Of a stretch of DNA of 64,000 nucleotides, positions 14,559 to 28,884 are shown piece by piece. The stretch spans positions 124,001-188,000 of the forward strand of contig NZ_JAMYJR010000023.1 of the NCBI RefSeq assembly GCF_024137025.1, in the 5' to 3' direction. A program made the position numbers and the translations under genes. This DNA comes from Paractinoplanes aksuensis. GTDB taxonomy: Bacteria > Actinomycetota > Actinomycetes > Mycobacteriales > Micromonosporaceae. A model generated the notes under the pieces. The model did not search any database. It had not been told where the DNA came from and saw nothing but the letters and a program-made list of their open reading frames with translations. Position 1 is the stretch's first letter; every line of letters starts with the position of its first letter.

Positions 14559-14630
14559 CCCCACCGCCTTCCGCCTGCGCCAACCCGCGGTAACCGGCCT
14601 GACCAGGCGCAGCTGTCGGCCGGCCCGCAA

Positions 14631-14793
14631 GACGAACCGTTTCGTCTCGCGCTGACACCGCTGCTGCCCGCCTACGAGACGAACCGTTTCGTCTCGCGCA
14701 GACGCCGCCGTCTGCCGACCCGCGGAACGAACCGTTTCGTCTCGCGCTGACACCGCCGCCGGCCGACCGCGGAACGAACCGTTTCGTCTTGCG
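14631..14793. repeat. Cluster of four palindromic repeats (dispersed family, locus 1)
   Basis: Four copies of a palindrome-centred element lie at about 14631-14651, 14676-14698, 14724-14746 and 14771-14793, evenly spaced by about 47 bp. Each carries a core close to GACGAACCGTTTCGTC followed by TCGCG. The same family occurs as nine copies at 25957-26308. The rest of the 406-bp gap 14559-14964 holds no gene I can support. Confidence 0.85.
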
Positions 14794-19450: not shown

Positions 19451-20341
19451 TCAGATCGTGAAGGGCCGGAAGGTCCGCGGCCCGTACAGGTTGTCCAGGA
19501 CTTCGTCGAGCTCACCGAGCAGCCGCCACGCGTCCTGCGGCCGCATGCGCGGCTTGTCGTAGGTGCAGCCGGCGGCGAACTGCTTCAGAGCTCTTGGTGG
19601 CTCTTGCATCAGCCGCATGATCAACTTGGTGGCCATGTAGATGTCGGTGGCCGGGGTCGTGCGCTTCTCGAGCAGCACTTCCGGCGGGTAGTGGTCGCGG
19701 TGCCCGGCGACGATCGCCTTGACGTGCGGCCCCGAGTAACACCAGTCGACGAGGGCGAGGCCGTGCTGCTCGGGCTCAATCAACACGTGTTCTTCCAATA
19801 CGGCGCCGTGCACCACACCCGCGCGGTGCGCCCAGCCGAGCCCGACCAGCAACCGCCGCCACATCCACGCCGCGTCGCGCGGATCGATCTTTTTACGGAG
19901 GTGGCTGAGAGGCACAAAACCGACAAGCCGTTCGAGTACGTTGACCCGCCGCCGCTTACGCTCCACGTCCTCGTGCACGTAGCTGTCGATCAGCTTCGGC
20001 GCGTAAGGCCGATACTTCGGATCGCCCTTCTCCCGCAACGCCGTCAGGGCGGCCGCCTCGGCCCCCATCAGGTCGCTGTCGGCCGGGCTGCGCGGAATCT
20101 TGAGCAGCCCTTTGTCACCGGTGACGAGGTCGGCGATGTCCCCCACGGCGACTCGCCGGCTCCGCTCCTCGTAGAGCTTCGACAGCTGCGCGAAAGCCCG
20201 ATTGGCGGCCGCGCTCTGCGCGTCGGTCACGGCGTCCGGGTGTACGGCCTTGGCGTACGCGCGGTAGGCCGCCTCCCCGTCGCCCAAGTCGGTAAAGCTT
20301 CCGGCCCGCTCGATCCGCGCCACCGCCTCGGCGAACCTCAT
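19451..20341 (-). CDS. J-domain / protein-kinase-like pseudokinase
   Basis: A 296-residue protein. The N-terminus resembles a J domain with the HPD motif at 34-36 (AVHPDAVTD). The rest has a kinase-like order: a beta-3 Lys81 in GLLKIPR, a helix-C Glu95, then GWAHRAGVVHGAVLEEHVLI where the catalytic-loop HRDxxxxN is replaced by HGAxxxxH (Ala180, His185). The metal-binding DFG is DWC, with Asp199 kept. Loss of the catalytic Asp and Asn argues for a pseudokinase. Its ATG overlaps the Nudix stop (ATGA). It probably acts as a binding or regulatory module for the vWA and PurA-like proteins. Confidence 0.78.
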   Translation of the reverse strand: MRFAEAVARIERAGSFTDLGDGEAAYRAYAKAVHPDAVTDAQSAAANRAFAQLSKLYEERSRRVAVGDIADLVTGDKGLLKIPRSPADSDLMGAEAAALTALREKGDPKYRPYAPKLIDSYVHEDVERKRRRVNVLERLVGFVPLSHLRKKIDPRDAAWMWRRLLVGLGWAHRAGVVHGAVLEEHVLIEPEQHGLALVDWCYSGPHVKAIVAGHRDHYPPEVLLEKRTTPATDIYMATKLIMRLMQEPPRALKQFAAGCTYDKPRMRPQDAWRLLGELDEVLDNLYGPRTFRPFTI

Positions 20342-21093
20342 CGCACACCGTCCTCACGGGTCGGCCGCAGCAGCGCCGGGTGCAGCAGTCGCGCGTCGCC
20401 GGCCCGGTAAAGCTTCGGCTTGGGCCCGCCCCGCTCCCCGCCCCGCGTCGACGTCTGCCCCGTACCCTCGACGAACCCGGGAACGGACAGCACCTTGCGA
20501 TGAAAGTTGCCGGCGTGCAGATCCTCGCCCCACACCGCCGCGTAGATCGCCCGCAGCTCCGAGATGGTGAACTCGTCCCCCGCGAACGCGGTGGCCAGCG
20601 GCGTGTACTCGAGCTTGGCCCGCGCCCGCTCGAGCCCGTCGGACAGGATCACGTCGTGGTCGAAGGCCAGAGCAGCTGCCTCGTCGACCGGCATCCAGTA
20701 AGCACCGGCCGCGTCGCCGCCGGCGCTGGGGTCGGGCAGGCTGGGCGCGAAAGCCAGATAGGCCACCGAGAAGACCCGCAGGCGCGGGTCACGCCCGGGA
20801 TCGCCGTAGGTCTTGAGCTGCTCGAGGTGAACCCGCTCGAGCTGCCCCTCACCCGGTGTCAGCCCCGTCTCCTCAGCCAGCTCCCGCCGCGCCGCGGCGT
20901 CAGGCCCCTCGTCCGCGCGAACGAACCCACCCGGCAGCGCCCGATGCCCGGCGAAGGGGTGCTCGGCCCGCTCGACCAGCAGCACGCAGAGGCGCCCGTC
21001 GCGGATGGTCAGCGCGACCACGTCAACCGTGACGGCCACGGCCGGGTAGGCGGTCGCGTCGTACCCCGCCAGGAACTCCGCCTCACCGTTCAC
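20338..21093 (-). CDS. NrtR-like Nudix hydrolase / winged-helix regulator
   Basis: A 251-residue protein. The N-terminal Nudix domain has an intact box, Gly56-x5-Glu62...Arg70-Glu71-Leu-x-Glu74-Glu75-x-Gly77. The C-terminal half (about 155-225, DEFTISELRAIYAAVWGEDL and NFHRKVLSVPGFVE) matches the winged helix of NrtR regulators, which sense ADP-ribose and control NAD genes. Many NrtR regulators have a degraded catalytic box; this one is intact and may hydrolyse its ligand. GTG at 21093 follows AGAGAGGAAAA. It is the first gene of the operon and may autoregulate. A conserved Lys/Arg-rich tail region follows the wing. Confidence 0.85.
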   Translation of the reverse strand: MNGEAEFLAGYDATAYPAVAVTVDVVALTIRDGRLCVLLVERAEHPFAGHRALPGGFVRADEGPDAAARRELAEETGLTPGEGQLERVHLEQLKTYGDPGRDPRLRVFSVAYLAFAPSLPDPSAGGDAAGAYWMPVDEAAALAFDHDVILSDGLERARAKLEYTPLATAFAGDEFTISELRAIYAAVWGEDLHAGNFHRKVLSVPGFVEGTGQTSTRGGERGGPKPKLYRAGDARLLHPALLRPTREDGVR

Positions 21094-21333
21094 CGCAGTT
21101 TTCCTCTCTATGAGATTAACTCGAACTGAGAACAACCTAGAACGATCCGGCGCGACGGTCAACCCCACTATCGGATTCAGCAGGCCCTCCGGGCCGATTC
21201 AGGCATCTTCGCTATACCGGCATTTACGAGTAAATGCCACGTTACGCTCCGGAACGAGACGGCCCGCCGTCCTCGACACGCGCGGGCTCACCCATTCCCA
21301 GAAGCGGTTCGCAGAACCGTAGGAGGACCTCGC
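21094..21333. promoter_or_regulatory. Divergent promoter region (Nudix operon / TIG-domain protein)
   Basis: This 240-bp gap separates two divergent genes. Directly upstream of the Nudix start the minus strand is less GC-rich and carries repeated GTT-containing steps (GTTCTCAGTTCGAGTTAATC, 21117-21136), a possible binding site for the NrtR-like protein itself. The rightward gene has an AGGAGG ribosome site at 21323-21328. No gene is seen. Confidence 0.4.
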
Positions 21334-23130
21334 ATGCGCAAGTCCCAAACTTCGAGCGGCTCCCGTTCGCTCCGAGCTGGCGTAGCGGTGGCGGCATCCG
21401 CCGCCGTGGTCGTTGCCGGCATTGCGGCACCCGCCTATGCCGCCAATACCGCGGTCACGGCCAACCCGGCCGTTGGACCCGTCGGTGGTGGCTTCACCAC
21501 CACCCTGAGCGGCACCGGTGCGTTCCCGGCGGCCTCGGCGTCAGTTCTGGCTGGTCGCACAACGACCTCCACCACCTGCCCGACGACCTACGGCACCAGC
21601 GGCACCACGGTGACCGCCACGCGGACGAACGACAACGCGGCCGACGCGACAGTGGCCGACCAGACCCTGGCTGCCGGCACCTACCGCCTCTGCATCTATG
21701 GCGTGGCGGCCGGTCAGACCGTGGTCTCGGCCTCGCCGCTGGTGGCCACGTCCGACGCGATCACCGTGAGCGTCGCGAACACCAGGCCGGTCCTGAGCAG
21801 CACCGCCGGCCCGATCGCCGGCGGAAACGCGGTCAACTTCACCGGAACCGGCAGCTTCATCGGGACGGCGTCGACGGTCGGCGCGATCTTCACGACAGCC
21901 ACCTGCCCGACGACGTACAACGTGGCTCCCGCCGGCAACTTCGCGGCCACGGCCACGAAGTCGAGCACGAGCGCCGCCGCCGTCACGGTGCCCGCCGGCC
22001 TTTCCCTCGGCAGCGCCTACAACGTCTGCCTCTACAACGGCACAGCTACGAACTCGGCGCTTCTAGGTTCCAGCAGCGCCACCTACTCGGTGCTGCCGCC
22101 CGCGACGCTGAGCCCGCGGTCGGGTAGTTCCGGGGTCGCCTCGACCATCACGGTCCAGACGACTGCGGCCAACACCTTCCCGGCATCGCCGACGCCCGGT
22201 GTCACCCTGACCACCGTCACGTGCCCGGCAACCTACGCCGTGGGCAGCGGCGCGGCGCCGTACGCGGCGACCGTCCGTCGCATCAGTGGAACCAAGCTGG
22301 CCGCGACTCTCCCGGTGACCAGCATCGCGACCACGCCCGGCCAGGCCACCACGGACTGGAACGTCTGCGTTTACGGCGAGGCCACCGCGCTCTCTCCGCT
22401 CCTGGTCGCTCCGGTCGCGTACACCGTGGCGCCGGTGCTGGCCATCACCGCGCCAACGCCCGCGACAGGCCCTGCCCAGGGTGGTACCGAGGTCGCCATC
22501 ACCGGCACCGGATTCCCGTTCCCGCTCGGTAACGCCCTGCTGACCGTCTCGATCGGCGGCTCCGCCCTGACCGACGTCCGCACCACCTCCGCCACCCGTC
22601 TGGTCGGCACCACGACGGCCCGGGCGGCCGGTCCGGCTGACATCAGCATCACGACGGCGGCGGGCACCGTAACCACCAGCAACACCCCGTTCACGTTCAA
22701 CTACGGCATCAACATCGCCCCGAACTGGGCCGCACCCGGCGCGACCAACATCACGCTCGATGTGCTGGGGGCCGGCTTCGGCGCCCTGGACTTCGAGGAC
22801 TTCCCGGCAAGTGGCGCGCCGACTGCCGACAAGGCCCACGTGCTGCTGGTGGACAACAGCTGGTTCGCCAACAACACCGGCGCGCCGGACGAAGCGTTCA
22901 GCGACGGCGGCGTAGTCAGCGAGTGCACCGGGGTGACCAAGATCGGTCTCAATGAGATCATCTGCGACCTCGACCTCACCAAGGATGTCGACGCGACCGG
23001 CAACCTGGTCGCCGGAGCTGTGCCGGCCGGCACCTACACGGTCGTAGTGGTCAACGACACCGACACCCTCGACGCGACCAAGCACTCCACGATCTCGAGC
23101 GCTGCGACCTTCACCGTGGCCGCCAACTAA
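21334..23130 (+). CDS. Secreted repeat protein with a TIG/IPT domain
   Basis: A 598-residue exported protein. The signal peptide has a basic start, a hydrophobic stretch to about 33 and an AYA cleavage site after residue 36. Three repeats of about 110 residues follow, each with a TCP(T/A)TY motif (near 83, 190 and 295) and a C(I/L/V)Y(G/N) motif (near 119, 231 and 344), giving one probable disulfide per repeat. A TIG/IPT domain (about 369-455, APTPATGPAQGGTEVAITG) and a C-terminal domain follow. Ser, Thr and Ala dominate. It has no sortase signal, so it is probably released. AGGAGG precedes the ATG. A surface or extracellular adhesion role is inferred. Confidence 0.8.
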   Translation: MRKSQTSSGSRSLRAGVAVAASAAVVVAGIAAPAYAANTAVTANPAVGPVGGGFTTTLSGTGAFPAASASVLAGRTTTSTTCPTTYGTSGTTVTATRTNDNAADATVADQTLAAGTYRLCIYGVAAGQTVVSASPLVATSDAITVSVANTRPVLSSTAGPIAGGNAVNFTGTGSFIGTASTVGAIFTTATCPTTYNVAPAGNFAATATKSSTSAAAVTVPAGLSLGSAYNVCLYNGTATNSALLGSSSATYSVLPPATLSPRSGSSGVASTITVQTTAANTFPASPTPGVTLTTVTCPATYAVGSGAAPYAATVRRISGTKLAATLPVTSIATTPGQATTDWNVCVYGEATALSPLLVAPVAYTVAPVLAITAPTPATGPAQGGTEVAITGTGFPFPLGNALLTVSIGGSALTDVRTTSATRLVGTTTARAAGPADISITTAAGTVTTSNTPFTFNYGINIAPNWAAPGATNITLDVLGAGFGALDFEDFPASGAPTADKAHVLLVDNSWFANNTGAPDEAFSDGGVVSECTGVTKIGLNEIICDLDLTKDVDATGNLVAGAVPAGTYTVVVVNDTDTLDATKHSTISSAATFTVAAN

Positions 23131-23148: not shown

Positions 23149-23177
23149 AACGGCCCGGAGCTGAGCTCCGGGCCGTT
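23149..23177. terminator. Hairpin terminator after the TIG-domain gene
   Basis: A 13-bp perfect stem (AACGGCCCGGAGC with its complement) closes a TGA loop and is followed by TTCTCGTTG. It lies 19 nt after the stop and before the convergent minus-strand gene, so it probably serves both. Confidence 0.85.
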
Positions 23178-23195: not shown

Positions 23196-23921
23196 TCAAC
23201 CCATCTCGGACCACTTCTTGTCGATCGCGTCGACCGCCTTGTCGCGGGACGGCTTGCCGTCGAGGTCGACCACCATGGCCACCACGCTCTTGTTCGCGGT
23301 GACCCGCCAGCACATCAACAGATTGTCTTTCTTCGCGGGCACGGCCTGAGCGCTGAACTGGAAGGTTTGCGAGCACGGCACACCGCGATGCCGCCCCACG
23401 CCACCCGACACATTCGCCAATCGCCCCTGCCCCGTCAGGTCTCCCCGGGCCGCCGTCACCGTGAGGGTGCCCCCCTTGGTCCGCGTCTCCTGAGTAGTGA
23501 CGGCAAGCCGCTGGCCGGCGCTAGTCATCTGCTGCTCGACCGCGCCCTGGACCGGAACCCCGTCCTCAGCCATCTTCCGGCGGGCGTCCTCGATCTTCTT
23601 GCGGACCTCCGCAGGTACGGAGGGCATCACCGTGGCCGGGGACGCCTTCGGCGAGGAGCTGGGCGTCTCCTCCGTCGGTGAAGCCCTTTTGACATCTGGC
23701 TCCGTCCCGCCGAACCGCGACTCCGCCGCCTCCGGCGTCAACGCCACCCGGCCCTCCGCCGGAATGTTCTCGTCGCCGGCCCGGTCGGCCACGAGGAATG
23801 CACCGGTGCCCAGCACCGTCGCGAGGCCTACGGCACCGACGGCCAGTTTCCTCTTCCGAAAGGAGACGGGTCTCGTCGTGGCGGAGATGGTGTCGTCGCG
23901 CTGCCGACCGTCCTCGGTCAT
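23196..23921 (-). CDS. Single-pass membrane protein, module copy 1 (unknown function)
   Basis: A 241-residue protein with a short cytosolic N-terminus (FRKRK), one hydrophobic segment (about 26-47), a Ser/Pro/Thr-rich stalk and an extracytoplasmic domain (about 140-241). That domain contains two cysteines in CSQTFQF and LLMCWRVTANKSVVAMVV and the ending DAIDKKWSEMG. It is paralogous to the product at 26373-27074, and both are divergent from a secreted subtilase. The start at 23921 is preceded by GGGGGAC; an ATG 15 nt upstream is possible. A role in handling or restraining the neighbouring protease is conceivable, but only position supports it. Confidence 0.7.
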   Translation of the reverse strand: MTEDGRQRDDTISATTRPVSFRKRKLAVGAVGLATVLGTGAFLVADRAGDENIPAEGRVALTPEAAESRFGGTEPDVKRASPTEETPSSSPKASPATVMPSVPAEVRKKIEDARRKMAEDGVPVQGAVEQQMTSAGQRLAVTTQETRTKGGTLTVTAARGDLTGQGRLANVSGGVGRHRGVPCSQTFQFSAQAVPAKKDNLLMCWRVTANKSVVAMVVDLDGKPSRDKAVDAIDKKWSEMG

Positions 23922-24137
23922 GTCGTAGTCCCCCATGTCGATGGCTTGGCCGCCGAGAGACGACGGCTCTCCCACTCCATGGTCGAGGAAATCCGGACTT
24001 TTCATTACGAAACAGCCGGACTGCGGCTGTGACCTGCGGCGCGTCCGGTCACGCAACCGAGCTGCACCGGGCATTTGCCTGACGAAATCGCGGCACCGGC
24101 CGACCGTTCTGCTCGACCACAATCGGGGAGGACGACC

Positions 24138-25883
24138 ATGAAGAAGCACCTGCGCCGTTACGCGGTGGGCGCGCTGGCCATCGGCGCGATCGCCGGCAGC
24201 GCTGCGATCGCCCTGCCCGGCAACGTCACCGCCGTGAGCGAGTGGCAGCCCGCTACGTCGTACACGCCGACCACGTACAACCTGGCCGAAGCGCCCGAGC
24301 GGCTGCTCCCGGCCGCGGTATCGGCGCAGAAGCCCGTACGCGTGGTGACCACGACCCTCGACGCCGACGGACGGCCGGTCATCAAGGTCACGACTGCGAC
24401 CAGCAAGTCGGCCGCGGCCAAGGCCGTCAAGGCCGGGCAGTCGGCTCCGAACGCGGTCGGCGTCGAGCTGGACGCCGTCGCCACCGCCACCGAGGTGCCC
24501 GCCGGCTCGGACACGTACCGCAGCCAGCAGTGGGACTTCTCGAAGATCCGCGTGGCCGACGCCTGGACGAAGTCGACCGGGGCCGGCGTCACCGTCGCCG
24601 TGCTCGACACCGGCGTCGACGCCCAGCACCCCGACCTGGCGGCCAACGTGCTCACCGGCTTCGACGCGACCACCGACAAGGCGGGCGTCAGCACCGACGC
24701 CAACGGGCACGGCACGCACGTCGCGGGCACGATCGCCGCGGTCACCGGCAACGGCAAGGGGATCAGCGCCGTCGCTCCCAACACCAAGATCCTTCCCGTA
24801 CGCGTTCTGGCCGCCAACGGCTCGGGCAACATGTCCGACGTCGCCGAGGGCATCGTGTGGGCGGCCGACCACGGCGCCACCGTCATCAACATGTCGCTCG
24901 GCTCGACCTCCAAGGTCACCGCCGTCACCAACGCCATCACGTACGCCCGCAGCAAGGGCGTCACGATCGTCGCCGCGGCCGGCAACGAGCGCGCCAAGAA
25001 CAGCCCGACCAGCTACCCGGCCGCCGACGCCGGCGTGATCGCGGTCGCCGCCACCGACTCGTCCGACAAGGTCGCCACGTACTCGAACGCCGGCGCCTAC
25101 GTCGACGTGGCCGCCCCCGGCTCCGGCATCCTCAGCACCTACCCGACCGCGCTCGGCGGCAAGACCGGCTACGCCACGATGAACGGCACCTCGATGGCGT
25201 CCCCGCACGTGGCCGCGGTGGTCGCGCTCCTCGAGGCGTACCAGCCCACGCTGACCCCCGACCAGATCGAGACCACCCTCAAGAACACGGCGGTCGACCT
25301 CGGCGCCAAGGGCCGCGACGACGACTTCGGCGCGGGCCGTATCGACCCCGTCGCCGCCCTCACCGCCCTCACCCCGGCGACCACCGCCCCCACGAGCCCG
25401 GCCACCACAAGCCCGACCCCGTCGGCCACCAAGCCCGCGACCAGCACGCCCACCCCGACCCCGTCGGCGACCAAGCCCACGACCACCACCCCGACCCCGA
25501 CGCCGACGCCGACCAAGACGGCCCCCGCCAAGCTCACCCCGACGGTCACGGTCGCCACCTCGACGACCTCACCCGCCAAGGGCGGCACCGCCTCGATCAC
25601 CTACACCGTGGTCACCGCGCCCGGCAGCCCGTGGGCGAACAAGTCGGTGCGGATCGCCCTGGCCAACGCCAGTATGAACAACTGGAGCTACACGACCGCG
25701 AAGACCAACGCCGACGGCCGCATCGCCTTCACGGTCACGGCCAACGCCAGCTTCGACGTGAAGCTCGTCGTCGCCGCCACCGACACCTCGGTCGAGACCA
25801 CCTCGTCGGTCACGACCTTCACCGTACGATCCCAGACCGCCGCCAAGGCCAAGCTCGCGCCGAAGCCGGCCACCGTCCGCTGA
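24138..25883 (+). CDS. Secreted subtilisin-like serine protease, module copy 1
   Basis: A 581-residue S8 protease. A basic N-terminus and hydrophobic segment (to about 32) form a signal peptide, followed by a short pro-region. The catalytic domain (about 130-400) has Asp157 in AVLDTGVD, His191 in NGHGTHVAGT, oxyanion Asn283 in AAAGN and Ser352 in MNGTSMASPHVAA. A Thr/Pro/Ser linker (about 415-475) leads to a beta-rich Ig-like C-terminal domain. ATG follows GGGGAGGA. It is divergent from a single-pass membrane protein gene. The whole arrangement is repeated 3 kb downstream. Activity is expected outside the cell. Confidence 0.93.
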   Translation: MKKHLRRYAVGALAIGAIAGSAAIALPGNVTAVSEWQPATSYTPTTYNLAEAPERLLPAAVSAQKPVRVVTTTLDADGRPVIKVTTATSKSAAAKAVKAGQSAPNAVGVELDAVATATEVPAGSDTYRSQQWDFSKIRVADAWTKSTGAGVTVAVLDTGVDAQHPDLAANVLTGFDATTDKAGVSTDANGHGTHVAGTIAAVTGNGKGISAVAPNTKILPVRVLAANGSGNMSDVAEGIVWAADHGATVINMSLGSTSKVTAVTNAITYARSKGVTIVAAAGNERAKNSPTSYPAADAGVIAVAATDSSDKVATYSNAGAYVDVAAPGSGILSTYPTALGGKTGYATMNGTSMASPHVAAVVALLEAYQPTLTPDQIETTLKNTAVDLGAKGRDDDFGAGRIDPVAALTALTPATTAPTSPATTSPTPSATKPATSTPTPTPSATKPTTTTPTPTPTPTKTAPAKLTPTVTVATSTTSPAKGGTASITYTVVTAPGSPWANKSVRIALANASMNNWSYTTAKTNADGRIAFTVTANASFDVKLVVAATDTSVETTSSVTTFTVRSQTAAKAKLAPKPATVR

Positions 25884-25895
25884 CCCAGCCCGACC

Positions 25896-25925
25896 AGGAC
25901 CCCGGAGCCCCCGCTCCGGGGTCCT
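25896..25925. terminator. Hairpin terminator after subtilase 1
   Basis: A perfect 13-bp stem (AGGACCCCGGAGC with its complement) closes a CCCC loop 13 nt after the protease stop codon. There is no long T tract, as is usual in actinobacteria. Confidence 0.85.
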
Positions 25926-25956
25926 GCCCATCCCAAGCCACCCACCCCGCAACGAC

Positions 25957-26308
25957 GAGACGAAACGTTGCGTCTCGCGGCAAAGGCGTAAGAGGGCAGC
26001 GCTGGTCTCCGCTGAGGCGACCACGCCGAGACGAAACGTTTCGTCTCGGCGTGGTCAGCCGCGACGAAACGTGTCGTTCCGGCCCGGGCTGGCCGAGAGC
26101 GGACGAGCCGTTTCCCCTCGCGGTCGCCGGCCGAGACGAGCCGTGTCGTTCTGGCCCGGACTGGCCGAGAGCGGACGAAACCGTTTCGTCTCGCGATGGC
26201 CGGCCGAGACGGGACGTATCGTTCCGGCGCGGGCTGGCCGAGATGAAACGAGCCGTTTCGTCTCGCGGTCAAGCCCGGCCGCGGCGAGACGAAACGTTTC
26301 GCCTTGCG
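25957..26308. repeat. Array of nine palindromic repeats (dispersed family, locus 2)
   Basis: Between the two protease modules, nine copies of a palindrome-centred unit start at about 25957, 26019, 26061, 26102, 26133, 26174, 26206, 26242 and 26286. The ideal core is the perfect 20-bp palindrome GAGACGAAACGTTTCGTCTC, usually followed by GCG. Copies alternate between well-kept palindromes and variants ending in GTCGTTCCGG, giving a higher-order period of about 72 bp. The copy at 26019-26056 extends to a perfect 38-bp palindrome. The same family is present at 14631-14793. No gene is seen in 25884-26372. Confidence 0.88.
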
Positions 26309-26372
26309 TCAGCCTTCAGCGGGCTCAAGCCAGACATGTCGTGGCGGGGTGTGAGCGGGGTAAGCCGAGTAG

Positions 26373-27074
26373 TCAGCTGAGGCGGTTCCATTCGCGGCGG
26401 ATGGCGGCGACGCTGTCGCCCGAGGAGGGGCGGCCCTGGTCGGCGACGGCGACCGTGACGACGCTGCGGCTGGCCGAGGTGCGCCAGCAGATCAGCATTG
26501 ATGGCACCACGCGGGCCTGCTCGCCCGTGGCCGCGCGCACCGTCTTGGTGCAGCGCGCCCCACCCACCAACCACCCCGTGTCCCCCGCTATGGCCAGCTC
26601 CGGCCGCCCGGTCAGGTCGTACTCGGCCGACGTCACCCGGATCCGGCCGCTGCCGGTGGACTCGCTGTGCTCGTTGAGCGTGGACGCCACCGCCAGCCCG
26701 GTCGACTCCGACGGTGCGGACACCGACGGGGACGGTGGTGGCGGGGTCGGGCTGGCCTCCTGCCGCGCGCCCGACCGGCTGACCCGCCCCGGCGACGCGG
26801 CCGCGACCGGTGAGGCCGGGGTGGCCGGCGTAGACGACACCGTCGGTGATGGCGACACCGGCGCGATCACCCGAGGCTCCCGGATCGCCGTGTTGCGCGA
26901 CAGATCAACCAACTGACTCTGCACCACGAAGAATGCGGCCCCGCCCAGCGCCGCCAGCCCGGCCAGCCCCACACCCAACTGCTTGCGCCGCTGGTGGCGC
27001 CGTTCCCGCGCCAGCGAACGGTAGATGCCGTTCTCGTCCTGCACGGTCACCGGCGCGTGTTCCCCCCGTCCCAT
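26373..27074 (-). CDS. Single-pass membrane protein, module copy 2 (unknown function)
   Basis: A 233-residue paralogue of the product at 23196-23921. It has a cytosolic basic segment (RERRHQRRKQ), one transmembrane helix (about 35-55), a long Pro/Ser/Thr/Ala stalk and a C-terminal domain with cysteines in GARCTKTV and LICWRTSASRSVVTVAV, ending AAIRREWNRLS. The ATG at 27074 begins MGRGEHAP; a longer frame upstream lacks similarity to copy 1. It is divergent from the second subtilase. Function not recognised. Confidence 0.7.
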   Translation of the reverse strand: MGRGEHAPVTVQDENGIYRSLARERRHQRRKQLGVGLAGLAALGGAAFFVVQSQLVDLSRNTAIREPRVIAPVSPSPTVSSTPATPASPVAAASPGRVSRSGARQEASPTPPPPSPSVSAPSESTGLAVASTLNEHSESTGSGRIRVTSAEYDLTGRPELAIAGDTGWLVGGARCTKTVRAATGEQARVVPSMLICWRTSASRSVVTVAVADQGRPSSGDSVAAIRREWNRLS

Positions 27075-27180
27075 GCCCCGATCGTGCCACCGACACGGAC
27101 AAAGCGCTCTAAAACCACCGGAACCAAGCTGCACCGCTTCGCTTCCCGGCCTGCCAACCGGGGCTGACGAATCCTCTGAC

Positions 27181-28884
27181 ATGAACAAGCAGATGCGTCG
27201 CTACGTTGTGGGTGCCGTCGTCCTGAGCGCGGTCGCGTTCACGCTCCCGGTTCACACCCCGATGATCGCGGTCAGCAGCGGCAACCCGGCCGCCACCAAC
27301 GACCCGAACGTGACGACCCCGCGGGCCGCCCGCGCATACGGTCAAAAGGCCCCCCGCGCCTCCGGTCAAAAGGCGGACCGGCACTCGATCACCCGCAACC
27401 TCACGGCGGCCCCCCAGCATCTGCTTCCGCCGGTCGTTTCCAAGGCCCTTCCCGTACGCGTAGTCAGCACCACCGTGGGCCGGGGCGGCCGCCCGGTGGT
27501 GTCGGCCCGTACCGTCACCGACCGCAGCCGAGCCGAAAGACTGGTCACCGACGGGCAGCGCGCACCCGGCGCGGTCAGTGTCGAGCTCGACGCCCCGGTC
27601 AGCATCGCCCAGGCCGACCCGTTCCTGCCTGCGCAGTGGGACCTGGCCCGCACCCGGGTCGACGGCGCCTGGCCGCGCTCGACCGGGGCCGGCGTCACCG
27701 TCGCGGTCGTGGACAGCGGCGTCGACGCCTCCCACCCCGACCTGGCCGGTCAGGTGCTGCCCGGCGCCGACTTCATCACCGGCACCGAGGGCGTTTCGGT
27801 CGACCCGCACGGGCACGGCACGCACGTGGCCGGCACGATCGCCGCGCTCACTGGCAACGGCACCGGCGTGGCCGGCATGGCCCCGCACGCCCGCATCCTG
27901 CCGGTCCGGGTGCTCGGCGCCAATGGCTCGGGCTACATGTCGGACGTGGCCAACGGCATCACCTGGGCCGTCGACCACGGCGCCGACGTCGTCAACATGT
28001 CGATCAGTTCGTCCTGGCAGGTCGCCGCGGTCAGCAACGCCATCTCGTACGCCCGGGACAAGGGCGTCGTGGTGGTCGCGGCGGCCGGCAATTCGCGCGC
28101 CGCGGGCAGCCCGGTCCTGTTCCCGGCGGCCGACGAGGGCGTCATCGCCGTCGCCGCCACCAACCCGGACGACTCCGTGGCCGGCTATTCGAACCGCGGC
28201 GGCTACGTCGACGTGGCTGCCCCCGGCACCGGCATCCTCAGCACGTACCCGGGCGACCGCTACATCCGCATGAACGGCACCTCGATGGCCGCCCCGCACG
28301 TCGCCGCCGTGGCCGCCCTGCTGAAGGGGGGCGACCGCGCCCTGACCCCGGAGCGGATCGAGACCGCCCTGACCTCGTCCGCCGCCGACCTGGGCGCCCC
28401 GGGCCGCGACGACGACTTCGGCGCCGGTCTGCTCGACGCGGCCGCCGCCCTGGCCACCCTGACCCCGCCGGCCCCGGCCACGACCGCGCCCACCACGGCT
28501 CCGGCCACGGCCCCCATCACCGTCCCGGCCACGACGCCGCCGACCACGATCCCGGCCACGCCCAGCCCGACGGTCACCGAGACCACCCCGGCCCCGGCGC
28601 CCACGACCGAGGTACCGGCGCCGGCGCCGACGCCCAGCGCCACCCCGTCCGCCACGCCGGCCAAGCCGATCATCCGCCTCGTCCGCCCCGGCTCGGGCAA
28701 GCTCACGGTCGCCATCGTCGGCGTTCAGGGCGTGCCGGTGGAGGTCCAGCAGTGGAACGGCCCGGACTGGGTGACCGTCCGCACCTACCCGGCCACCACT
28801 ATTGCCCGATTCGTCGATCTTGTTCCCGGCTTCGATCACCGCGTCGTCGTGGCGGGCGCCACAAGCGACGTGATCCGGCTCTAG
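27181..28884 (+). CDS. Secreted subtilisin-like serine protease, module copy 2
   Basis: A 567-residue S8 protease and paralogue of the product at 24138-25883. After a signal peptide (hydrophobic to about 30) and a longer pro-region, the catalytic residues are Asp178 (AVVDSGVD), His212 (HGHGTHVAGT), Asn304 (AAAGN) and Ser368 (MNGTSMAAPHVAA). A Pro/Thr/Ala linker (about 435-495) precedes a compact beta-rich C-terminal domain that differs from copy 1. The ATG at 27181 has only a weak ribosome site, so expression may be lower or the leader may be short. It is divergent from membrane-protein copy 2. Confidence 0.92.
   Translation: MNKQMRRYVVGAVVLSAVAFTLPVHTPMIAVSSGNPAATNDPNVTTPRAARAYGQKAPRASGQKADRHSITRNLTAAPQHLLPPVVSKALPVRVVSTTVGRGGRPVVSARTVTDRSRAERLVTDGQRAPGAVSVELDAPVSIAQADPFLPAQWDLARTRVDGAWPRSTGAGVTVAVVDSGVDASHPDLAGQVLPGADFITGTEGVSVDPHGHGTHVAGTIAALTGNGTGVAGMAPHARILPVRVLGANGSGYMSDVANGITWAVDHGADVVNMSISSSWQVAAVSNAISYARDKGVVVVAAAGNSRAAGSPVLFPAADEGVIAVAATNPDDSVAGYSNRGGYVDVAAPGTGILSTYPGDRYIRMNGTSMAAPHVAAVAALLKGGDRALTPERIETALTSSAADLGAPGRDDDFGAGLLDAAAALATLTPPAPATTAPTTAPATAPITVPATTPPTTIPATPSPTVTETTPAPAPTTEVPAPAPTPSATPSATPAKPIIRLVRPGSGKLTVAIVGVQGVPVEVQQWNGPDWVTVRTYPATTIARFVDLVPGFDHRVVVAGATSDVIRL

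Follow-up and report, generated by a model that had tools for sequence, protein, structure and literature searches.

The described systems closest to the locus considered here are the mycosins of type VII secretion, secreted proteins that carry IPT/TIG domains, and the TcrA regulon of Actinoplanes missouriensis, for which the published account gives the TcrA box as nnGCA(A/C)CCG-n4-GCA(A/C)CCGn (PMC12691653). The locus lies in a 64,000-nucleotide stretch of the Paractinoplanes aksuensis genome (contig NZ_JAMYJR010000023.1, positions 124,001 to 188,000; hereafter, the window), where the gene for a secreted TIG protein meets, tail to tail, the gene for a membrane protein, MP1; there follow a subtilase gene, SUB1, convergent with a second membrane protein gene, MP2, then a second subtilase gene, SUB2, and genes for a molybdopterin oxidoreductase, a FAD reductase and a helicase. 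Searches of the available literature on Actinoplanes subtilisins, IPT/TIG domains, the extracellular proteome and immunoglobulin (Ig)-like surface proteins found no paper on this locus. Its principal genes are the following.

21334-23130, plus strand: secreted IPT/TIG (Ig-repeat) protein of 598 amino acids (aa), tail-to-tail neighbour of MP1, assigned by Pfam and a structure model.
23196-23921, minus strand: MP1; start placed by a GGGGGA ribosome-binding site and by alignment with other family members, stop at 23196.
24138-25883, plus strand: SUB1, secreted mycosin-like S8 subtilase, tail-to-tail neighbour of MP2, assigned by Pfam, the mycosin profile and the tree.
26373-27050, minus strand: MP2, paralogue of MP1, of the SUB-facing clade; GTG start inferred by alignment with the family start, stop at 26373.
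27181-28884, plus strand: SUB2, secreted mycosin-like S8 subtilase and paralogue of SUB1, assigned by Pfam, the mycosin profile and the tree.

The best-conserved unit is the secreted TIG gene together with the gene of its membrane-tethered partner; the subtilases are separable from it and have a promoter element of their own. Computation establishes the MP family, its one predicted membrane helix, the linkage of the genes, the tracking of partners along the MP phylogeny, a conserved promoter repeat and a conserved leader. A preliminary description of this DNA had reported two minus-strand MP paralogues, each head to head with a plus-strand SUB paralogue, and these genes and their order are real (the inferred starts of the facing genes are 23921 for MP1 and 24138 for SUB1, and 27050 for MP2 and 27181 for SUB2). 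The further claim, that the whole divergent pair had been duplicated, was not confirmed: MP1 and MP2 fall in different sets of the MP tree, and SUB1 and SUB2 likewise belong to different supported sets. The same description had not recorded the secreted neighbours that lie tail to tail with the MPs, the TIG gene (21334-23130) for MP1 and SUB1 for MP2. Within the Actinoplanes group of soil bacteria, the facing MP/SUB pairs look like a local arrangement, not the conserved unit.

Neighbours of the MP genes inside and outside the genus

Neighbourhoods were compared across 60 fetched stretches of the genus together with the window (61 in all), with genes assigned by homology and those outside the homologue families called by a simple codon-score caller. 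At the 3' side of the 128 MPs in the genus lie a convergent TIG gene (58), a convergent SUB (43), a co-directional MP (18) or another gene (9), and at the 5' side a divergent SUB (38), a co-directional MP (18), a divergent TIG gene (15) or, for the rest, other genes. The divergent neighbour is, by the MP tree, the less conserved side of MP, and the view that MP serves specifically the protease it faces is not supported. When the pair was sought in other genomes, a subtilase was present in 47 of the 61 Actinoplanes stretches with MP (window included), which partly supports the suggestion that MP works with a subtilase; the other 14 have MP without SUB nearby, an outcome that the preliminary description had itself named as speaking against the pair. 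Some of these 14 stretches stop at contig edges, and two of the genomes have a second locus with SUB.

In ten loci from other genera, TIG adjoins MP in all ten (nine convergent, one co-directional; the TIG domain was confirmed by Pfam in the four tested of the ten), and no SUB of this type was found in the ~20 kb stretches around them, the remainder of those genomes not having been searched. The flanks of the TIG-MP pair differ, with GroEL in the genus designated g7 and glutamine synthetase and lipoyl synthase in Virgisporangium (names read from sequence). A weaker subtilase match (57-89 bits) occurs ~4-6 kb from MP in five of the ten loci. Dismissal of these matches as spurious was overturned for the one at L104, the sole one of the five that was tested: Pfam finds in it a real S8 domain, in a larger and different protein. 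Six stretches fetched later (L107-L112) stand outside the 61-stretch counts; no member of the gene families in question was found in L109 or L111, and nothing beyond MP matches of ~33 bits in L110 and L112.

Phylogeny and dissociation of MP and SUB

The MP tree has 136 rows, two of the 128 genus MPs (<180 aa) being excluded, and is a quick tree with many weak forks; the SUB tree has 68 rows, with one of the 69 SUBs (<350 aa) excluded. When MPs are labelled by their 3' partner (SUB or TIG), the label changes six times over 101 rows, against a mean of 32.8 and a least value of 25 in 200 shuffles; the 5' partner label changes eight times over 53 rows (shuffles: mean 13.3, least 9). Near-copies cluster such labels, so the comparison of the two sides weighs more than either figure, and in the 36 rows that have both labels there is one change for the 3' partner and five for the 5' partner (in shuffles, on average 8.8 and 7.4, and no fewer than 5 and 4). 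Within the genus, the MP phylogeny tracks the tail-to-tail partner better than the head-to-head partner. In the MP1 set, eight of nine rows have a convergent TIG, and five of the nine, MP1 included, face a SUB. All 11 members of the MP2 set adjoin a convergent SUB, again in line with some relation between MP and subtilases, and nine of them also face one.

The two genes also occur apart. A convergent MP is present at 43 of the 68 SUBs, 23 of which lack a divergent one. Seven genomes of the genus lack an MP match at E 0.001 (E, expectation value); four of them (G058, G008, G029 and G005) keep a SUB that is 53-59% identical to SUB1, in loci where no MP or TIG was found within 20 kb, and two of these four SUBs have a box-like site upstream, with two mismatches. 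This dissociation argues against an obligate pair.

The MP family

MP is a single-pass protein with a low-complexity linker and a folded C-terminal domain in which two Cys residues, the Trp after the second Cys and the last Trp are invariant across the family. Hydropathy places one membrane helix in 117 of the 128 genus MPs and none in 11, with a mean net charge of +2.6 before the helix, and the N terminus is probably cytoplasmic (N-in). The C-terminal domains of MP1 and MP2 are 36% identical over 98 residues (E 8e-13), and no other clear copy turned up in the 10 Mb genome, three further matches at E 0.14-0.53 being taken as chance. Neither protein has a significant match in Pfam or NCBIfam; in a Pfam scan extended to E 1, MP2 had no match and MP1 matched just DUF6172 (E 0.11) and DciA (E 0.13), neither of which passes the cut-off, and a PDB sequence search with the domain profile A4 gave two matches (E 0.3 and 1.2), which we take as chance. 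The C-terminal domain of MP1 was modelled with a predicted local distance difference test score (pLDDT) of 89.4 and a predicted template modelling score of 0.80, and Foldseek searches with this domain returned no match at E 0.001 (best E 0.14). Two other identities were considered and rejected. As a sequence test, Pfam recognises no inhibitor domain that would make MP a known subtilisin inhibitor (I9 propeptide or SSI); PADLOC has no match for the MPs that would place them in a defence system, and for SUB1 just the subtilase and IetS models.

Searches with MP1 found matches at E 0.01 in 60 of the 67 genus genomes. A profile made from 50 aligned C-terminal domains (A4) found MP in 70 of 354 genomes and 6 of 44 genera of the family; within the genus, two to four copies often lie together. 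These searches scored part of the first-look candidates (12 per genome for the 354-genome search, 40 for the MP1 search), and absence of MP accordingly means not found at the depth used. A class-wide sample of 394 genomes yielded MP only in the own genome, besides two hits of ~24 bits that are taken as chance. The named MP-bearing records belong to Actinoplanes, its segregates (Paractinoplanes, Amorphoplanes, Nucisporomicrobium), Virgisporangium and Pilimelia, genera that form sporangia.

The TIG protein and its mRNA leader

The TIG protein of the window matches the Pfam TIG domain at E 6.7e-9 (36.1 bits, against a gathering score of 20.9), and its structure model (pLDDT 75.4) is almost all beta, with one short helix. 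The fold matches of this model are headed by plexin ectodomains (including an IPT3-IPT6 fragment), together with many other Ig-like arrays, at TM-scores of ~0.2. An N-terminal hydrophobic stretch suggests that the protein is secreted. The very last residue is F or Y in 91 of 101 TIG proteins (FTVxx[FY] type), and the window copy ends in N (FTVAAN). Anchoring by sortase is not indicated, the last third of the window protein having no hydrophobic stretch; 2 of the 101 TIG proteins have one.

Upstream of the gene, and shared by its homologues, is a leader:

21242-21336, plus strand: -10-like box (TTACGCT) and 5' leader of the TIG gene, with two hairpins, the second just 5' of an AGGAGG ribosome-binding site.

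The TTACGCT motif is the putative -10 box of the TIG promoter, and the 7-mer AGGAGGA is present in 69 of 100 TIG upstream regions, against 1.4 expected. Of the 82 CGTAGGAGG sites, 74 count as leaders, and the 33 non-redundant ones among them entered the alignment; in the two hairpins, 6 of the 11 pairs show two-sided changes, a value reached in none of 500 shuffles, and slid controls gave at most three such pairs. The RNA model built on this alignment, R1, has one strong copy in the own genome, at the leader (E 5e-17; the next match has E 0.2), and none of the 4227 Rfam families matches the window leader up to E 5. Among 200 sampled genomes of the family, 35 are positive for R1 (30 of the genus and 5 of g7), all of them MP-positive, and MP was likewise not detected in any of the six genus genomes of the sample that have no leader (G005, G008, G016, G020, G029 and G058). 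We regard the TIG leader as a candidate for a new RNA element that acts in cis-regulation or in mRNA stabilisation.

Between the TIG and MP1 stops lies a further element, likely a terminator common to the two genes to judge by its sequence:

23149-23177, no strand: perfect inverted repeat with 14-base arms and a 1-base loop, read in the sequence.

The subtilases and their promoter repeat

SUB1 and SUB2 are both S8 subtilases and 49% identical to one another; their Peptidase_S8 matches in Pfam have E 1.8e-63 and 3.1e-60, and the catalytic D, H and S motifs are present (DTGVD/DSGVD, GHGTHVAGT and GTSMA). A hydrophobic stretch in the last third is found in 7 of the 69 SUBs. SUB1 is without the last domain, of ~75 residues, that is present in 63 of the 69; only a short distance separates the end of its gene from the cluster of palindromic repeats at 25952-26311 described below. 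Direct repeats precede both genes:

24053-24070, plus strand: TcrA-box-like direct repeat GCAACCG-AGCT-GCACCGG upstream of SUB1, with one mismatch to the published box.
27120-27137, plus strand: degenerate repeat GGAACCA-AGCT-GCACCGC upstream of SUB2, with four mismatches, read in the sequence.

For SUB2 of the window, the motif scan gives another site, also with four mismatches, and several SUB2-type genes (L063, L086, L073) have degenerate sites. The box is found on the forward strand in 32 of 69 SUB upstream regions at two mismatches or fewer, in 15 at one or fewer, and in 5 exactly, with ~2% in shuffled sequences; the forward-strand count at the two-mismatch threshold is 6 of 128 for MP upstream regions. 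Read in reverse, 15 of the 128 MP regions have the box, these sites presumably being in part those of SUBs in shared promoters. The best box match lies 84-93 bases before the start in 47 of the 69 SUBs, and when 58 non-redundant SUB upstream regions were aligned blind to the motif, GCAACCGA.CT.GCACC was among the most conserved blocks, alongside the ribosome-binding site and the start. Over the whole genome there are 114 box matches at one mismatch or fewer, against 73 in the reversed control, and over the whole window 11 at two or fewer, with 11.6 expected and therefore no excess. The likeness of the SUB repeat to the published box suggests that the SUB genes are under a TcrA-like promoter element and makes them candidates for the TcrA regulon.

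Other features of the locus

The palindromic repeat mentioned above is dispersed:

25952-26311, no strand: cluster of a dispersed palindromic repeat of the GAGACGAAACGTTTCGTCTCG type, between SUB1 and MP2.

Repeats of this type are also found at 14628-14744 of the window and elsewhere in the genome, where 131 matches (three mismatches or fewer, most places being counted on both strands) compare with none in the reversed control. Next to the locus, in the window as in many Actinoplanes stretches, lie two minus-strand genes: one encodes a NUDIX/NrtR-like regulator (20338-21168) and the other a kinase-like protein that weakly matches DnaJ (19451-20341). In loci without SUB (L043-L045, L053-L056, L065, L080 and L081), secreted glycosidase-like proteins (u13) are encoded beside TIG and MP, and most of these loci also have patatin-like proteins (u16), both names being read from sequence.

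Discussion

We favour, tentatively and at somewhat less than an even chance, the view that MP, tethered to the membrane, helps to dock or assemble secreted Ig-array (TIG) proteins as their partner, and is not dedicated to the SUB that it faces. A partnership with TIG is supported by the adjacency of the two genes in every one of the other-genus loci, in differing surroundings, and by the joint occurrence of leader and MP in the genus. The ancestral unit would likely have been a TIG gene and an MP gene placed tail to tail. From a cytoplasmic N terminus, MP would cross the membrane once, run into or through the wall as a low-complexity linker of ~100 residues, and display its small C-terminal domain outside, where the domain may bind the emerging secreted protein and aid its folding, retention or surface placement. 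In Actinoplanes, the locus would have expanded as MP and TIG genes were duplicated and mycosin-like subtilases joined them; some of these subtilases may have taken over the position of TIG opposite MP, as SUB1 may have done opposite MP2; with their TcrA-like promoter element, the subtilases would process or remove surface proteins in sporangium development. The steps that we infer in this scheme are membrane orientation, ancestral state, binding, direction of action and the sporangium link.

Several observations weigh against this account. Tail-to-tail adjacency alone is no proof of joint function, and a head-to-head SUB does occur, at 38 of the 128 genus MPs; the MP2-SUB2 head-to-head order, moreover, is kept in all nine rows of the SUB2 set, as would fit the earlier suggestion of a working MP-subtilase pair. 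At L088, one of the MP loci, no TIG and no SUB gene occurs within 20 kb. The leader was not found in the other four of the six MP-positive genera in the 200-genome sample, and no AGGAGG core pattern was seen in the fetched loci of those four. The TcrA-like box was not found at TIG genes (0 of 100 at two mismatches or fewer, either strand), and the link to the sporangium draws on morphology together with the promoter repeat. As for the fold, VIA-align gives the MP domain Z values of 4.6-6.2 to the RseB C-domain, Tsi3, PsbP, DcrB, TiME, EagT6/SciW and LpqN, all below Z 8, the trust level of the tool, and profilin (5.0) and TrmE (4.8) score alike.

The docking view can be extended to a lineage-specific system of surface assembly in sporangiate actinomycetes, with MP as the membrane receptor on which TIG docks (maybe through the conserved FTVxx[FY] end), control of the TIG mRNA by the new leader RNA, and TcrA-driven SUBs that cut the layer at maturation or dehiscence. 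We consider this extended scheme a long shot. Docking through the tail, in particular, is opposed by the window TIG, which has no aromatic end, by the presence of that end in 34 of the 41 TIGs without an adjacent convergent MP, and by the SUB proteins, which lack such an end (1 of 69 ends in F).

Possible, though rather unlikely, is that MP acts as a general chaperone or retention factor needed by TIG and SUB alike, with MPs specialised for their clients by clade. MP clades do separate according to whether the convergent neighbour is TIG or SUB, and the convergent gaps to MP are short for both (median 98 base pairs for TIG and 51 for SUB). However, 25 of 68 SUBs, SUB2 among them, have no convergent MP (12 of these 25, again including SUB2, sit directly 5' of the oxidoreductase gene), and SUB occurs without detected MP in other genomes. 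Less probable still is that the genes adjoin because their order was inherited and they are transcribed convergently (with a terminator in common, for example, or antisense control), the proteins themselves having no contact. The inverted repeat common to the TIG and MP1 stops would suit this explanation, as would the flanking genes that many Actinoplanes MP loci have in common; the TIG-MP pair persists, however, in genera where the flanks are different, and leader and MP are missing together from genomes of the genus. The original proposal, in which every MP would inhibit, anchor or help to mature the subtilase that it faces and the pair was duplicated as a unit, is very unlikely: the head-to-head order in the window, a divergent MP at 38 of the 69 SUB genes and the nine of 11 MP2-set members that face a SUB are outweighed by MPs without SUB in 14 of 61 stretches and without this type of SUB in all ten other-genus loci, by a close SUB without detected MP in four of seven genomes, by the absence of a divergent MP from 23 of the 43 SUBs with a convergent one, and by the different clades of MP1 and MP2.

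A protease-plus-inhibitor reading that was plausible and misleading can thus be exchanged for a testable one, a surface Ig-array protein with a membrane partner. The unnamed MP family gains a candidate partner and a distribution, and, if the sporangium link is true, the locus would supply candidate protein components and candidate proteases for the Actinoplanes sporangium.

Compared with described systems, the MP domain as modelled may share with the RseB C-domain, Tsi3, PsbP, DcrB, LpqN, TiME and EagT6/SciW a small size, a similar strand arrangement and a C-terminal helix, and differs from them in low sequence identity, no profile match, its own invariant residues and the single predicted N-terminal membrane helix. 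Several of these proteins are grouped as Mog1/PsbP-like, and the modelled domain weakly resembles extracytoplasmic or chaperone-like protein-binding modules. The window TIG protein is like secreted proteins with IPT/TIG domains in its TIG domain and all-beta repeat architecture; unlike them, it belongs to a set that is specific to the lineage and, in the genus and in one further genus, has an mRNA leader of its own. The catalytic domains of the SUBs match the type VII secretion mycosin profile TIGR03921 along most of its length, with scores (259.5 bits for SUB1 and 247.3 for SUB2) under the curated cut-off of 278.75, and, unlike those mycosins, the window SUBs have no C-terminal membrane helix by hydropathy and carry a T/P-rich linker after the catalytic domain. 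Finally, the promoter repeat of the SUB genes matches the TcrA box published for the A. missouriensis regulon (PMC12691653), and the SUB copy of A. missouriensis itself (L064) has a site with three mismatches to that box.

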